In this document: positions 6,463 through 55,350 of the stretch, piece after piece
How the letters are laid out: every line of letters begins with the position of its first letter
Numbering within the stretch: position 1 is the first letter of the stretch
Assembly: GCA_000751595.1 (NCBI GenBank)
Contig: CCMH01000045.1
Coordinates: 1-64,000 of the forward strand
Length of the DNA: 64,000 nt
From: Weeksella massiliensis
GTDB taxonomy: Bacteria; Bacteroidota; Bacteroidia; Flavobacteriales; Weeksellaceae
Reading direction: 5' to 3'
The notes under the pieces: model-generated
Told to the model about the DNA's origin: nothing
What the model saw: the letters and a program-made list of their open reading frames with translations, nothing else
Databases searched by the model: none
Made by a program: the position numbers and the translations under genes

Positions 6463-9400
6463 ATGAAATTGAAATTCAAAGACTGGAATAATTATTTGGG
6501 CTGGGCAATGTTTTTGGTTGCCTCTATTGTTTATCTCTCGACGATAGAACGTTCGTTGAGTTTATGGGATTGTGGCGAATACATTGTCTCGTCTGCAAAA
6601 CTTGGCGTTACGCACGCGCCAGGAGCGGCTTTCTTTCAATTGTTGGGCGCTGTTTGGTCGTTGTTTGCGTTTGGTAACGGGGACGAATATGCTTTGATTA
6701 TCAATGCTTCTTCTGCCATTTATAGTGCGATAACTATTATGTTATTATTTTGGACCATCACTTTTTTTGTCAGAAAATTAATTCATGGTTCGATAGACAA
6801 TACCAAGTCAGTTAATGAAATTATCTTAACCAAACCTCAGCAAATCATTACATTAGGAGCAGGATTGGTTGGTGCTTCGGTTTTTATGTTTTCGGATACT
6901 TTTTGGTTTTCGGCGGTAGAAGGCGAAGTGTATGCGATGGCGTCTATGTTTACAGCGCTTATTATTTGGTTAGGAATTAAATGGGATGCAGATGCAGATT
7001 CGCCAAGAGGAGATAAGTGGTTAGTCCTTATTTCTTTGGTTGTTGGTTTGTCGATTGGTGTTCACTTAATGGCAATATTAGCCATTCCGGTTGTGTGTTA
7101 TTTGTACTATGCACGCAAGCATACCATGACCCTAAAAAACTTTATAATAGGCAATATTATCACACTTTTAGTGCTGATTTTTACCTTCAAAATTATCTTT
7201 CCTTTCACTATGAAACTCTATGGGAAAGTAGAAATTTTTACCGTAAATAGTTTAGGATTACCTTTCCATTCGGGGACATTTGTTACCACAGTTTTATTGG
7301 TAGGATTATTTGTTTTCGTCCTCAATACTTCTCGTAAATACAATTGGAAAACTGTCAACACAGCTTTGTGGTGTGTAATTTTTATGTTGGTAGGATTTAC
7401 GTCTTGGTTGGTAATACCGATTCGTGCCAATGCCAATCCACACATGAATCTGAATGATCCCGATACTGCATTAGGCATGCTAGATTATTTCAATCGTGTA
7501 CAATACGGAGATTGGCCAACCTCGTACGGACCCGTTTATACAGCGCATATTGCATATGATGGTGTCGAGCGCGATAGCAACGGCGATTACGCTTTCAAAA
7601 TTACAGGAGCAGAATACATCAAAGACAATCGAATTGGGAAATATGTAAAAGTGGCCGATCGTAGAGATTATATTTATAATGATAAATACGTAAAGGTTTT
7701 TCCGAAAATGTTCGATCCTAAAGCAGAAAGTATGGAGAATTATGCAGCAATGTATGGTTTCCCAGAATTCTCTTTGAACACGAATTTCTATACCAATTAC
7801 GAAGATGATGAGCAAACAAAAGCACAGAAAAGAGGTTATGCAGAAAAAGTGTATAATGATCTAATTACCAAAAAAGCAAACGGACAATTGAAAGTGGCCG
7901 ACCTCAAAAAATACAATGAATTACTCAATATAGAACCACCAACTTTTGGTCAACAATTGAATTATTTCATGGATTTCCAAATCAATTATATGTTTATTCG
8001 TTACTTGATGTGGAACTTCTCTGGGCGACAAAACGATTTAGAAGGTCATTTCGAGGCTGTTCGTGGAAATTGGATTTCCGGAATTCCTTTTATCGACTCT
8101 ATGCGAATCGGAGATCAATCTACCTTGCCAGCCGATTATAAAAACGACGGACATAATGTCTATTTCATGTTACCTCTTTTATTAGGGTTGATAGGATTTG
8201 TTTTTCAGCTCAATAGAAACTTTGTGCATTGGTGGTCAATTTTAGCATTATTTATCATTACCAGTGTCGGAATTATTTTTTATACCAGTGTAAAACCTTT
8301 CGAACCTCGTGAGCGAGATTATGCGTTGGTTTCGTCATTCTATGCGTTTGCAATTTGGGTCGGAATCGGAGTGTCAGCGATTTACTTGATGGTCGAAAAA
8401 CTAAAAAAACAAGCTCTTTCGTCTTCGGTTGCGATAGCCGTTTCGGCAATTTGTATGGGAGTTCCAGTTTTGATGGGCTTTCAGAATTGGGACGATCACG
8501 ATCGATCAGAACGTTCTGTTGCACACGATTTAGCCTACAATTATTTGGTCGGATTGGATAAAAACTCCATACTATTTGTTTTCGGTGATAATGATACCTA
8601 TCCGTTGTGGGGCTTGCAAGAAACCGAATTGTTCCGTGACGATGTGAAAATTGCTAACCTTACTTTGGCCAATTCTCCTTGGAATCTTGATCAACTTTTG
8701 CGTAGAACTTATAATGCAAAAGGTTTACCAACGAATCTTAAGTATACAGATTTCCAAAGTGGAACGAATGACAATATTTTTGTGGTTGATAGTTCGATAA
8801 AAAACTTCTTCGATGAGGTAAACTCTTACCTAAAAGAAGGTGTTACTTTACAAGCTCTAAGCCAGATGCCGATAGAAGAAGCACAGAAACAAATGGTTGA
8901 TGAACGTATTGATGCTTCGCAAATTTTAGCGGTGTACAATTCTCTGAAAGGAGTTGAGAAATATGTTACGCAAGATTCGATGACCGCAAAAGAAGCAATC
9001 GATTTTATCTTGGACAATAAGAATCCTACCAAGAAAGCTTTGGCCGATTATTTCGGCTATCCGGTAGGCGCTGTGAATTTCTTGCCTGTTAGTAAAATCG
9101 TTGTTCCGGTAAACAAAGAAAATGCTTTGAAGTATGGCATCGTAAGTCCAAAACAAAAAGATCAAATCGTCGATGAGGTTGTGATCAATCTAAACTCAAG
9201 AACACTTTACAAAGCCGATTTGATGATGTTGTCTTTATTGGCAAATTATAACTGGGATCGTGCAATGTATTTCAGTGGAGGTGGGGTATATGATCCGAGC
9301 AGTATTTTCTATATGCAAGATTATTTACAACATGCAGGATTGTCGTATAAATTTGTACCGATCTATAAAAAATTCGGTGAAGGCGGTGTGGTTGGCTCTT

Positions 9401-50187: not shown

Positions 50188-51351
50188 TTGGAAGAAAATA
50201 AATGTTCATTTTGTGGCAAAAGCAGAGAACAAGTTCAGCTTTTGGTTTCGGGAATTGATGGAAATATTTGCGAAAACTGTATCGAACAAGCCTACGGAAT
50301 TGTGAAAGAAGAAGCTTCTTTTCATAAAAAACAAGGTTTGGTACAACCGCTTCAGTTGAAATCACCACGCGAAATCAAAACATTTTTAGATGAGTATGTC
50401 ATCGGACAAGATCAAGCCAAAAAAATCTTGTCGGTTGCCGTTTACAATCATTACAAAAGAGTGCTCAACGAGTCGGCTGTTGGCGATGTAGAAATCGATA
50501 AGTCGAATGTGATTTTGGTAGGAGAAACCGGAAGTGGAAAAACCCTTTTGGCCAAAACCATTGCCAAATTACTCAACGTTCCTTTTGCTATTGTCGATGC
50601 TACGGTGCTTACCGAGGCAGGATATGTTGGGGAAGATGTAGAAAGTATTTTGTCTCGTCTTCTGCAAGCGGCAGATTACAATGTAGAGTTGGCCGAGAAA
50701 GGAATTGTGTTTATTGATGAGATTGATAAAATTGCACGTAAAAGTGATAATCCTTCTATCACCCGAGATGTGTCTGGGGAAGGAGTGCAACAAGCGATGC
50801 TGAAAATTTTAGAAGGGGCTGTGGTAAATGTTCCGCCAAAAGGAGGAAGAAAACATCCCGATCAGAAGTTTGTAGAAGTCAACACCAAAGATATTCTGTT
50901 TATTGCCGGAGGAGCTTTCTCGGGAATCGATCGACATATTGCCAATCGTCTGAATAAACACGTGATAGGTTTCAAGAAAGATGAAACGAAAAAAGAAACC
51001 GAACATCTTTTAGAAGAAGTCAATGCAACGGATCTGAAGAATTTTGGTATTATCCCAGAATTGATTGGTCGTTTACCGATCATTACGTTCCTCAAACCAT
51101 TAGACCAAGAAGCAATGAAACGTATTTTGACCGAGCCCAAAAATGCGTTGATCAAACAATACGAAAAACTTTTTGAGTTGGACGGAAAAGAATTGGTTGT
51201 AACCGAAAATACATTAAACTATATCGTGAATCGTGCAGATGAATTAGGTTTAGGTGCGCGAGGTTTACGTTCAGTGACCGAAGAAATTTTTACAGATATT
51301 ATGTATGATATCACCAATCAACCTGATAAAGTATTGATTGACATTAAATAA
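50188..51351 (+). CDS. clpX: ATP-dependent Clp protease ATP-binding subunit ClpX
   Basis: An AAA+ unfoldase that recognises tagged proteins and threads them into ClpP. Its 387 residues include an N-terminal zinc-binding domain (CSFCGK and CENCIEQ, four Cys), Walker [14 protein letters not shown], Walker [13 protein letters not shown], and sensor-2 region GLGARGLRS. The start must be TTG: an in-frame TAA lies two codons upstream and any later start would cut off the zinc domain. Confidence 0.97.
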
Positions 51352-51387
51352 ACAAATCAAAATTGGTAAATTAATATAAATATTATA

Positions 51388-51395
51388 TATCTTTG
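51388..51395 (+). promoter_or_regulatory. Promoter -7 box of the T9SS cargo gene
   Basis: TATCTTTG exactly matches TAnnTTTG, 50 bases before the ATG, leaving a leader of roughly 45 bases. Confidence 0.65.
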
Positions 51396-51445: not shown

Positions 51446-53665
51446 ATGAAAAAGAATTTACTTAGTATTTTTGCATTATCATTATGTTTTTATGTTAACG
51501 CACAAGTAGCAACAGCCAATAATACAATTATTGGAGATGTGGGTCAAGAAAAAGGTGTTAAAGTTTCTGTACAGAAGAATACTTTAATGTATTTTGGAGA
51601 TGGCCTAAAAGTTATTGGAGATGATAGTAAGGCTGTGGTCGACAATAAAGGTAATATCCACATCAATTTATCTAGTGTGAAACAAGGTGAAAATACTACT
51701 TCTTCACCGAAACAATATGCCTTCTATAACTATAATAAGAAAAATGTAGTAGACCAAAATGCTGGTCTTTCAGACTTTTCTACTGGAGCTAATTTTGTCA
51801 ATAGATATGAAAGTAAAGATAGTTATGGACAACTAATGTTTACACAGAATAATATTTCTACGTCTAATTCTGATAACCCTAACGTTAACAATAATTTGAT
51901 AAATGGACGTGTAACAATGGAACAACCTTTTGTTTCTCCATCAAATTTTGACTGGTTACCCATTTCTATTCCTTTTAATCAAGGATCGAAAATTAATAAC
52001 GAGACATATAAAAATATCATAGTTAATAGTTTCTCTAAATATGGATTTTCAGCTTCAGACTATCTAATGTATTCCGATGCTATGGGAAATAGTAGGTATT
52101 CTTCAACTGTAATGAGATGGAATCCTAAGAAGTATTATTATGAAACTTTAAAGACTAGTGGAGGGGTAGATAATGACAATGTCTTGTCACCAACAGAAAC
52201 AATTATATTAAGTTTAAGAAAAGGAAAATTAAATAATATTTTCTCTTCAAATACGAACACTAATAATAAAATTGGCTATAAAGGAAATCCTTTTTCAATG
52301 CAAGGACATTTTGTGATAGATGCTGTAGCAGAAAACTCTATTTATACAAATGTTGATACTTGGAATTCATGGTCAAAAAGAATTAATCCTGTAAACGAAA
52401 AGTATAATTCATATATTGGTGAAAGTATGACTCTTCTTGAAAATGGAGAAAGCAAAAATTATGGGAAAAATTTGATTAATTTTGGAAATCCATTTACTCA
52501 TAATCTTGATTTTGCAGCTTTATTTGTAGAAATTAGTACTAATGTATTTGGTGTAAGTCAAGATTTATTAAATAAGACTATTGCTGTTCAAAAAATGGGC
52601 GATCAAGTAAAATGGTCATTTGGAGAAGGTAACTTATCACCAAAAACAACAGTGTATGCAACACCTACTTCTATACAAAATAAACAATGGGCAGGGGACA
52701 AAGAAGCTTTACTTCTTAGACCTTTCGAGGTTTTAACAATAAAATTAAATTCTGCAATTCAACAACCTAATGAATTGAAAATGAATTTTCTAGATGGACA
52801 AGGAAATTGGCAGACAGGTTATAAAACATTTAAACATTCAACTTCTGCTAATGTAACTCAAAGTCGATTAGAATCAGAAAACCAAGAAAAGGCATCAATA
52901 GATGGAAGTGGTTTTTACCAATTAGGATTGCAACTAACAGCAGATGATAATTCAGTTCAGAATCATGCGTATCTTTTAGCTATTGATCAAGATGTTACTG
53001 GTAAAAATGCTTCTTTTGAATTAGATTATGCAAGTTTTGGAACTAATTCTGGCATATGGTTATTTCAAGAAACCGAAGATGGTGAGTACGAAAGTGGTTC
53101 ATATAAATTTATTAATGCATTCAATGTAAATGATTATGTAGGAAAACCATTACACGTTATGTTTTATAAAAGTCCAGAAAATCTGACTAATAATTTTACA
53201 TTCAGTGTCAATTTAGCAGAACAGACAACCTTTAACGATAATTTAGATGAGTTTTCTAACGGAAATAAATTTTTCTTTGTTGATAAAAAGGAAGAGAAAG
53301 CATATGAAATAAATGGAGGGTTTAAATATTCTTTTACTGCTGAAAATTCTGAAGAAGATCGTTTTGTAATTTATTGGAATGAATTACCTGATGGAGTTTT
53401 AGGAAATAATGATATTGAAGTAGATCGAAATAAAACGCACGTTTATTCTACATCTGCACGCGAGAATTATATACGTTTTGCAAAAAATAATTTAAAAGCT
53501 GATATTCAAATTTTTGATTTACATGGACGTTTAGTTTCTGAAAAACAAAATGTAAATACAGCTCAAGATTTTAGAATCTCTAATAATTTATTAAGTACAG
53601 TTTATTTTATTAAAATAAATTATAATGATGGTTCTAAGGAGTTATTAAAGTCACTTATAAAATAA
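51446..53665 (+). CDS. Large secreted protein with T9SS C-terminal sorting domain
   Basis: A 739-residue surface or secreted protein. A signal peptide (core LLSIFALSLCFYVNAQ) and a C-terminal domain of about 70 residues are visible. That domain, with ADIQIFDLHGRLVSEKQNVN and LLSTVYFIKINYNDGSKELLK, follows the type IX secretion sorting pattern (xIYDxxGRxV, then xYxVKI, then a basic end). Type A and type C signals are hard to separate here. The long middle is rich in Asn, Ser and Lys, and I recognise no enzyme domain. By eye the DNA is more AT-rich than its housekeeping neighbours, suggesting a fast-evolving or acquired gene. A PID-CTERM-like small gene follows after 22 bases. Confidence 0.85.
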   Translation: MKKNLLSIFALSLCFYVNAQVATANNTIIGDVGQEKGVKVSVQKNTLMYFGDGLKVIGDDSKAVVDNKGNIHINLSSVKQGENTTSSPKQYAFYNYNKKNVVDQNAGLSDFSTGANFVNRYESKDSYGQLMFTQNNISTSNSDNPNVNNNLINGRVTMEQPFVSPSNFDWLPISIPFNQGSKINNETYKNIIVNSFSKYGFSASDYLMYSDAMGNSRYSSTVMRWNPKKYYYETLKTSGGVDNDNVLSPTETIILSLRKGKLNNIFSSNTNTNNKIGYKGNPFSMQGHFVIDAVAENSIYTNVDTWNSWSKRINPVNEKYNSYIGESMTLLENGESKNYGKNLINFGNPFTHNLDFAALFVEISTNVFGVSQDLLNKTIAVQKMGDQVKWSFGEGNLSPKTTVYATPTSIQNKQWAGDKEALLLRPFEVLTIKLNSAIQQPNELKMNFLDGQGNWQTGYKTFKHSTSANVTQSRLESENQEKASIDGSGFYQLGLQLTADDNSVQNHAYLLAIDQDVTGKNASFELDYASFGTNSGIWLFQETEDGEYESGSYKFINAFNVNDYVGKPLHVMFYKSPENLTNNFTFSVNLAEQTTFNDNLDEFSNGNKFFFVDKKEEKAYEINGGFKYSFTAENSEEDRFVIYWNELPDGVLGNNDIEVDRNKTHVYSTSARENYIRFAKNNLKADIQIFDLHGRLVSEKQNVNTAQDFRISNNLLSTVYFIKINYNDGSKELLKSLIK

Positions 53666-53687
53666 ACCAACTAATAAACCTATAATA

Positions 53688-53978
53688 ATGAGTAAAATAT
53701 TCATAAAGTTCTTACTAGTACTAACATTTTTTATAAATGCAAATTTACTACTAGCCAACGAAGGTCGAGGACCATATCAATTACAAAGTTCGACACAAGA
53801 AGTTTATTCTGGAGATATTATACCACCAAGTACACCTCCACAAGGGTCAGGTAATATTGGAACTCCAGGTGCACAAGCAACACCGATTGATGATCATGTA
53901 GCAATCTTAGTTTTATCTGCATTAATGATAGGAACTGCGTTCTTTTTCTATAAAAAGCGAGAAAAACAAACGATATAA
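53688..53978 (+). CDS. Small PID-CTERM-like sorting-signal protein
   Basis: A 96-residue protein in three parts: a signal peptide (FLLVLTFFINANLLLANE), a short Pro/Gly/Ser-rich mature stretch (IPPSTPPQGSGNIGTPGAQ), and a C-terminal module of PID, one membrane helix (about residues 70-88) and a basic tail KKREKQ. This tripartite end matches the PID-CTERM type of putative protein-sorting signal known from Flavobacteriia. Very little protein remains after removal of both ends. It lies 22 bases after the T9SS cargo gene and shares its transcript up to a strong terminator. Confidence 0.8.
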   Translation: MSKIFIKFLLVLTFFINANLLLANEGRGPYQLQSSTQEVYSGDIIPPSTPPQGSGNIGTPGAQATPIDDHVAILVLSALMIGTAFFFYKKREKQTI

Positions 53979-54000
53979 TCTGATAAATTAGTTATATTTA

Positions 54001-54032
54001 AAACCTCAATTCTAGAATTGAGGTTTTTTTTT
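54001..54032 (+). terminator. Terminator of the T9SS/PID-CTERM pair
   Basis: A perfect palindrome, AAACCTCAATTC-TA-GAATTGAGGTTT, ends in a long T-tract, 22 bases after the small gene. Confidence 0.9.
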
Positions 54033-54048
54033 ATTAAATTAATTCACT

Positions 54049-55350
54049 ATGAAAAATTTATTTTATGGATTAAGCTTCTTACTCTCGAGCTGTGTTTTTG
54101 CACAATTCAAAGTAGAAGGTACGATTGCAGGATACGCTAATCAACCTGTAACTTTGAAAGTCTACGAAGGTTCGGCTGCAAAAGTTTTATCCAAAGTAAA
54201 AACAGATAATTCTGGAAAGTTTACCGCAAATGTTCCTCGAAAATACGACGGAATGCTTATGTTTAGTTTGGTCAATGGGCAAGATATTCAACTATTAACC
54301 AATAATCAGGCAATAGAATTTACGGCCGAAAATCAAAATCCGATTCAGTTTTCGGTAAAAGTACAGAAAGGAGAAATTGCTAAAAACTTTTTAAAACTAA
54401 ATTCATTAAACGGTTTGGTTGATCTTAAAGACAACGTTTTTAGTCATATCAGCAATTATTACCAACCAGCAGATGAATTTTATCAAGCGATCGAAAAAGA
54501 GAAAGCAAGAATAGAAGGTTTGCTCAAACAAAATAATGCAGCCGACCCAATGTTGTCGTATTATAAAGAAGTTGCTTCTTTGCTCGATAAAGTGAGTTCT
54601 AATGAAGGAGCGTCGCAAGAGAATGTCGATAAAATAGTTCAACATTTGGCAAATGATGATGATAAGTTAGAACAAATGGGCTTTTTGATGCCTTTGGTTT
54701 TTAATTATATCAAAACCGAATTTACTTTGCAACAAGCAACGAATCCTAATGCAGAAGAAATCGTCAAGAAAAGTATCGATAACTTGTTTGCAAAAACAAA
54801 TCTCAACTCTGTACGAGGACAAAATGTAATGGCTGCTTTGTTGAATTTCATTTCAGAACAACAATTCCCAACTGTATATCCTGAGTTGCTGACCAAAGCT
54901 AAAAGTATCCGTACGGTGGTTTCATCCGACCTAAAAAATAAATTAACCTCTATCGATGGGTTGACGATTGGTGCAGAAGTTCCGAATATCGTTTTTGATG
55001 AAGCGGTAAAAGGTAAAAAATCGTTGTACGATATCAAAGCTAAAAAGAAATTGATTGTTTTTTGGGCGTCTTGGTGTCCTGCTTGTCAGGCCGAAATGCC
55101 GCATATACAAGAGTATTATTCAGCGTTCAAGAAAGATGGCGGCGAGATAGTAGCTATTTCTTTGGATAGCGATCAAAAGGCGTATCAAGATGCGATCAAA
55201 GATTTTGGTTGGTATAATTACTCAGAACTCCTAAAATGGGATAGTGAGATTGCTAAACAATATGGAGTAAATGCGACACCGACTCTTTTCTTACTCGATA
55301 AAGATAACAAGTTAGTGAAAAAAGGACATAGTCTGCAAGAAATACAATAA
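54049..55350 (+). CDS. TlpA-like thioredoxin-fold protein with DUF4369-type N-terminus
   Basis: A 433-residue exported protein: signal peptide (LFYGLSFLLSSCVFAQ), a DUF4369-like beta domain (about 22-110, FKVEGTIAGYANQPVTLKVY), a helical middle, and a C-terminal thioredoxin domain with active site WCPAC near residue 341 inside VFWASWCPACQAEMP and the cis-Pro loop NATPTLFLLD. It is probably a periplasmic disulfide reductase. The protein ends soon after the fold (GHSLQEIQ), slightly shorter than many relatives. It has no obvious partner nearby. Confidence 0.9.
   Translation: MKNLFYGLSFLLSSCVFAQFKVEGTIAGYANQPVTLKVYEGSAAKVLSKVKTDNSGKFTANVPRKYDGMLMFSLVNGQDIQLLTNNQAIEFTAENQNPIQFSVKVQKGEIAKNFLKLNSLNGLVDLKDNVFSHISNYYQPADEFYQAIEKEKARIEGLLKQNNAADPMLSYYKEVASLLDKVSSNEGASQENVDKIVQHLANDDDKLEQMGFLMPLVFNYIKTEFTLQQATNPNAEEIVKKSIDNLFAKTNLNSVRGQNVMAALLNFISEQQFPTVYPELLTKAKSIRTVVSSDLKNKLTSIDGLTIGAEVPNIVFDEAVKGKKSLYDIKAKKKLIVFWASWCPACQAEMPHIQEYYSAFKKDGGEIVAISLDSDQKAYQDAIKDFGWYNYSELLKWDSEIAKQYGVNATPTLFLLDKDNKLVKKGHSLQEIQ

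Follow-up and report, generated by a model that had tools for sequence, protein, structure and literature searches.

A PID miniprotein gene, paired with a type IX secretion cargo gene, encodes a candidate target of exosortase XrtF

Introduction

In Flavobacterium johnsoniae, the exosortase XrtF (TIGR04128; Fjoh_1448) is needed for biofilm formation and surface colonisation. Deletion of xrtF or of the gene for the exosortase F-associated protein (TIGR04127; Fjoh_1449) abolishes zorbs and strongly reduces biofilm, as in mutants of the type IX secretion system (T9SS), and the substrates of XrtF were stated as still to be found and predicted to be dissimilar from PEP-CTERM (PMC10936215). No XrtF substrate had been named in the literature found. 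A C-terminal sorting signal of the PID type has been recognised at NCBI (PID_CTERM, NF046080), although we found no paper using this name and none on exosortase X (NF046081), a sister family of XrtF. The accession of exosortase X follows that of PID_CTERM, which may reflect a pairing made by the curators.

Here, we analysed a stretch of 64,000 nucleotides of Weeksella massiliensis (contig CCMH01000045.1, positions 1 to 64,000), referred to as the window, in which a gene encoding a large T9SS cargo is followed by a gene encoding a miniprotein of 96 residues. The initial annotation had described the two genes as a secretion cassette with a shared promoter and a common terminator, and had tentatively linked the two sorting routes. 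This link is largely supported by the comparisons presented below.

Results

Organisation of the two-gene cassette

The large gene (51446-53665, plus strand) encodes a protein of 739 amino acids with a signal peptide and a C-terminal T9SS domain (residues 662-739, 53429-53662), which matched the type A sorting model TIGR04183 with 30.6 bits (cut-off 23). The result for the Pfam family Por_Secre_tail (PF18962) was borderline, with 30.5 bits for the genomic match, but 25.4 bits against a cut-off of 27 in the scan of the whole protein. The AlphaFold2 model (mean pLDDT 78.7) places the domain on the C-terminal domain folds of NucA (8glk, Z 9.5), RemA (8gl6, Z 9.1), and RemZ (8gl8, Z 9.1), with an rmsd of 2.1-2.4 over 73-75 residues. 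The genome encodes SprA and contains 34 Por_Secre_tail matches. The family of the large protein is conserved across Weeksellaceae, but its body matched no Pfam family, a PDB sequence profile search returned only C-terminal domains, and structure searches with the whole model and with residues 36-468 alone (51551-52849, predicted with a pTM of 0.83) gave no solved structure for the body. A new beta-rich fold is possible, although the lack of a match does not show that the fold is new. Within the body, the motif GNPFTHNLDF (residues 347-356, 52484-52513) was identified, of which N348, P349, and N353 are invariant in 47 homologues.

The second gene (53688-53978, plus strand) starts 22 bp downstream of the large gene. 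Its product consists of a signal peptide (residues 1-23, 53688-53756, placed by eye with a cut after LLLA), a Pro/Gly-containing linker of 42 residues (24-65, 53757-53882), the PID motif (66-68, 53883-53891), a hydrophobic helix (about residues 70-88, 53895-53951), and the basic tail KKREK (89-93, 53952-53966). In the 80 of 81 homologues that could be anchored on the motif, the first position is P in 100%, the second I, V, or L in 100%, and the third D in 99%, and a Tyr is found two residues after the D in 97%. The helix is 92% hydrophobic and the last nine residues contain on average 3.8 K+R, whereas the linker varies (18-30 amino acids in relatives in which the mature N-terminal Q could be placed). 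A degenerate motif (VSANMY) occurs in one lineage. The conservation of the PID motif rather than of the linker suggests an enzyme recognition site.

A Bacteroidetes-type promoter (TTG-N22-TATCTTTG, 51363-51395) is located upstream of the large gene on the plus strand. This is only suggestive, because the consensus (spacing 17-23) occurs 20 times on both strands of the window. An intrinsic terminator with a 12-bp stem, a 4-nt loop, and a T-run (54000-54032, plus strand, −12.3 kcal/mol) follows the miniprotein gene. The third-position GC content of the two genes (0.162 and 0.167) is the lowest of the window's ORFs listed (0.334 +/- 0.056), in accordance with the AT-rich base use noted in the initial annotation. 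However, in relatives the large gene is also below clpX in 75 of 77 loci and the miniprotein gene in 71 of 77, and the locus order is conserved through Weeksellaceae. The low GC content is therefore a trait of the pair and not a sign of recent transfer, and a foreign island was rejected.

Conservation of the pair in Weeksellaceae

Searches of 59 related genomes revealed both genes side by side in most members of the family. A scan of named genomes returned 80 loci from Chryseobacterium, Empedobacter, Moheibacter, Kaistella, Cloacibacterium, Epilithonimonas, and others. In all 80 loci, the miniprotein gene follows the large gene at a distance of −1 to 53 bp. The upstream neighbour is clpX in 77 loci (50188-51351 in the window, plus strand, where it appears to start with TTG), and the downstream neighbour is a gene encoding a DUF4369/TlpA-like thioredoxin in 78 loci (54049-55350 in the window, plus strand). 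In nine relatives, clpX is joined directly to the thioredoxin-like gene and both cassette genes are absent, indicating that the pair is gained and lost as a unit. A chance pairing of a T9SS gene with an unrelated small ORF is refuted by this synteny. The strict pairing would also be explained by an unprocessed miniprotein that stays whole in the inner membrane as an anchor, chaperone, or escort helping its cargo to reach the translocon without involvement of XrtF. The miniprotein has everything needed for a single-pass membrane protein, and a cargo-specific escort would account for the co-loss, but neither the conservation of the PID motif nor the co-occurrence with XrtF described below is explained, and we consider this alternative unlikely.

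PID miniproteins at other loci

A profile built from the miniproteins matched many Flavobacteriales genomes, and 40 further loci away from the clpX site were inspected. The gene directly upstream encodes a T9SS domain in 26 of these loci (two of them with weak domain scores), whereas about 1.5% would be expected. These comprise 20 of 20 loci of second-class Weeksellaceae miniproteins, 3 of 4 loci of one genome (G054), and 3 of 16 loci of a family designated f3 here. Thus, most miniproteins of family f3 have no T9SS gene directly upstream on the same strand, and the cargo is not always next door. A GNPY counterpart of the motif in the large protein occurs in 21 of 22 other PID-linked T9SS cargoes of Weeksellaceae and family f3. 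One genome (G302) harbours a related cassette duplicated in tandem as a unit (cargo, miniprotein, cargo, miniprotein; locus L191, 1280-6734), in which the cargoes are 56% and the miniproteins 70% identical.

Several of the Weeksellaceae loci continue into exopolysaccharide genes encoding a sugar transferase, a PglD-type acetyltransferase, a DegT aminotransferase, and Polysacc_synt_2 and Poly_export proteins. PID miniproteins lie between a T9SS cargo and exopolysaccharide biosynthesis/export genes at the loci L182, L185, L187, L190, L193, and L200. A T9SS cargo in one such cluster (L182, 3970-7299) showed a partial match (172 of 260 bits) to NF052644, the model of a T9SS-dependent surface endonuclease. 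The cassette in the window is not inside an exopolysaccharide cluster.

Solo miniproteins exist in family f3, for example near mce, ribE, and pdxA, or next to prfC, where a T9SS gene lies beside the miniprotein gene in some genomes and not in others. Together with the short and variable linker, the solo genes would be in line with a free peptide released by XrtF as a surface peptide or signal, in which case the T9SS neighbour would be only co-regulated. The all-or-none inheritance with one cargo family at the clpX site, the association with related GNPY cargoes elsewhere, and the tandem duplication of a pair make this reading improbable.

The solo miniprotein near ribE/pdxA was also compared with Fjoh_0651, a very small gene of unknown function in F. 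johnsoniae, whose deletion phenocopies xrtF and which was complemented by a 434-bp fragment with its promoter (PMC10936215). Two related genomes, G201 (C1, 728045-728326) and G216 (C1, 2674883-2675101), carry the miniprotein 28 and 64 ORFs from PorZ, which was confirmed by profile in G216 only. Since PorZ is Fjoh_0707 in F. johnsoniae, 55 genes would be expected. The rough position and the size are consistent, but five small secreted paralogues of about 97 amino acids are located in a row nearby in G201 (C1, 720380-721990). The correspondence is therefore a tentative lead and not evidence.

Co-occurrence with exosortase XrtF

The window's genome encodes XrtF elsewhere (contig C6, 21233-21745), far from the cassette, with 170 bits against a cut-off of 90. 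It is followed by the exosortase F-associated protein (126 bits, cut-off 35; the two genes are at 7168-7785 and 7772-8218 of locus L310). Cys110, Arg151, and His170 are invariant in 30 of 30 XrtF proteins.

Of 393 genomes of the order, 205 have a strong miniprotein and XrtF, none has a strong miniprotein only, 44 have XrtF only, and 144 have neither (E≤1e-5 outside the family; inside it, every XrtF-linked hit is far stronger than 1e-3). When the analysis was restricted to the 335 genomes with the T9SS protein SprA, the numbers were 205, 0, 44, and 86, respectively. At the looser cut-off of E≤1e-3, seven genomes outside the family have a weak miniprotein hit without XrtF. The 44 genomes with XrtF only, including one inside the family (G341), may harbour undetected or other substrates.

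Because relatedness inflates such tests, the distribution was also analysed within genera. In the genus designated g35, 49 genomes have both, none the miniprotein only, 5 XrtF only, and 5 neither (p=5e-5). In g55, the corresponding numbers are 3, 0, 0, and 8 (p=0.006). In g5 and g21, the genomes G006, G295, and G274 lack XrtF and the miniprotein, while sister species keep both, but they retain 43, 48, and 72 T9SS domains, respectively. In its distribution, the miniprotein therefore depends on XrtF and not on T9SS as such. Since both XrtF and the miniprotein are common in Flavobacteriales and the Fisher tests ignore phylogeny, the link might still be a lineage effect, with the PID signal read by another protease, for example a rhomboid. 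The within-genus contrasts reduce this concern but do not remove it. Taken together with the absence of strong miniproteins without XrtF in 393 genomes and the anatomy of the protein, which is that of exosortase substrates, such a lineage effect appears very unlikely.

Discussion

The expectations of the initial annotation were borne out, as small PID-helix-basic ORFs are strongly non-random next to T9SS genes, a sorting protease co-occurs, and the C-terminal domain of the large protein passes the type A model and has the predicted fold of T9SS sorting domains. Three points need to be amended. The low GC content does not mark foreign DNA, the miniprotein falls outside the existing PID_CTERM model, and the three proposed roles of the miniprotein (anchor, processed peptide, or partner) cannot yet be told apart, although the linkage to XrtF favours a processed peptide.

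We consider it probable, though far from certain, that the miniprotein is a substrate of XrtF and that the pair is a surface cassette joining two sorting routes. In this model, both proteins would cross the inner membrane by Sec. The large protein would go on through the T9SS translocon, where its C-terminal domain is removed. The miniprotein would stay in the inner membrane by its C-terminal helix until XrtF cuts at or next to PID and releases or transfers the Pro/Gly-containing peptide (about 20-45 residues) to an unknown acceptor. This processing is inferred, since no experiment shows cleavage. The peptide might then act with its cargo on the surface, most plausibly as a small tether or adaptor between the T9SS protein and surface polysaccharide, because many other miniproteins sit behind T9SS cargo in exopolysaccharide clusters. 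A further-reaching and more speculative possibility is sorting in trans, in which the separately encoded peptide becomes the surface tether or subunit of a T9SS cargo. The T9SS C-terminal domain with its outer-membrane sortase and the exosortase in the inner membrane would then assemble one surface complex, possibly linked to exopolysaccharide.

The PID miniproteins are specific candidates for the unidentified targets of XrtF, as they are short, often encoded at a fixed locus, and paired with an identifiable T9SS cargo. The pairing also suggests a functional bridge between two sorting systems that have been treated as separate. Furthermore, many small hypothetical genes in Chryseobacterium, Empedobacter, Flavobacterium-like genomes, and relatives that are missed by the existing PID_CTERM model could be named.

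In comparison with the described systems, the large protein resembles the T9SS type A cargoes RemA, NucA, and RemZ in the sequence and predicted fold of its C-terminal domain, but it is encoded with an exosortase-type miniprotein. The miniprotein shares the tripartite tail (PID, helix, basic end) with PID-CTERM, and PID-CTERM-type miniproteins of the genomes G054 and G052 align with it. However, the NF046080 model (25 positions, cut-off 26 bits) does not match the window protein, and only 3 of 32 aligned members hit it at E≤0.1, while relatives in the families designated f2, f5, and f7 do pass. XrtF proteins score 80-128 bits against exosortase X, but the exosortase of the window's genome is below the cut-off of that family (94.8 of 170 bits) and above the XrtF cut-off. 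With the PEP-CTERM/EpsH exosortase system, the miniproteins have in common the motif-helix-basic tail, the signal peptide, and, for part of the family, exopolysaccharide gene neighbourhoods. In contrast to that system, the motif is P-[IVL]-D and not PEP, the substrate has almost no body, and it is tied to a T9SS cargo.
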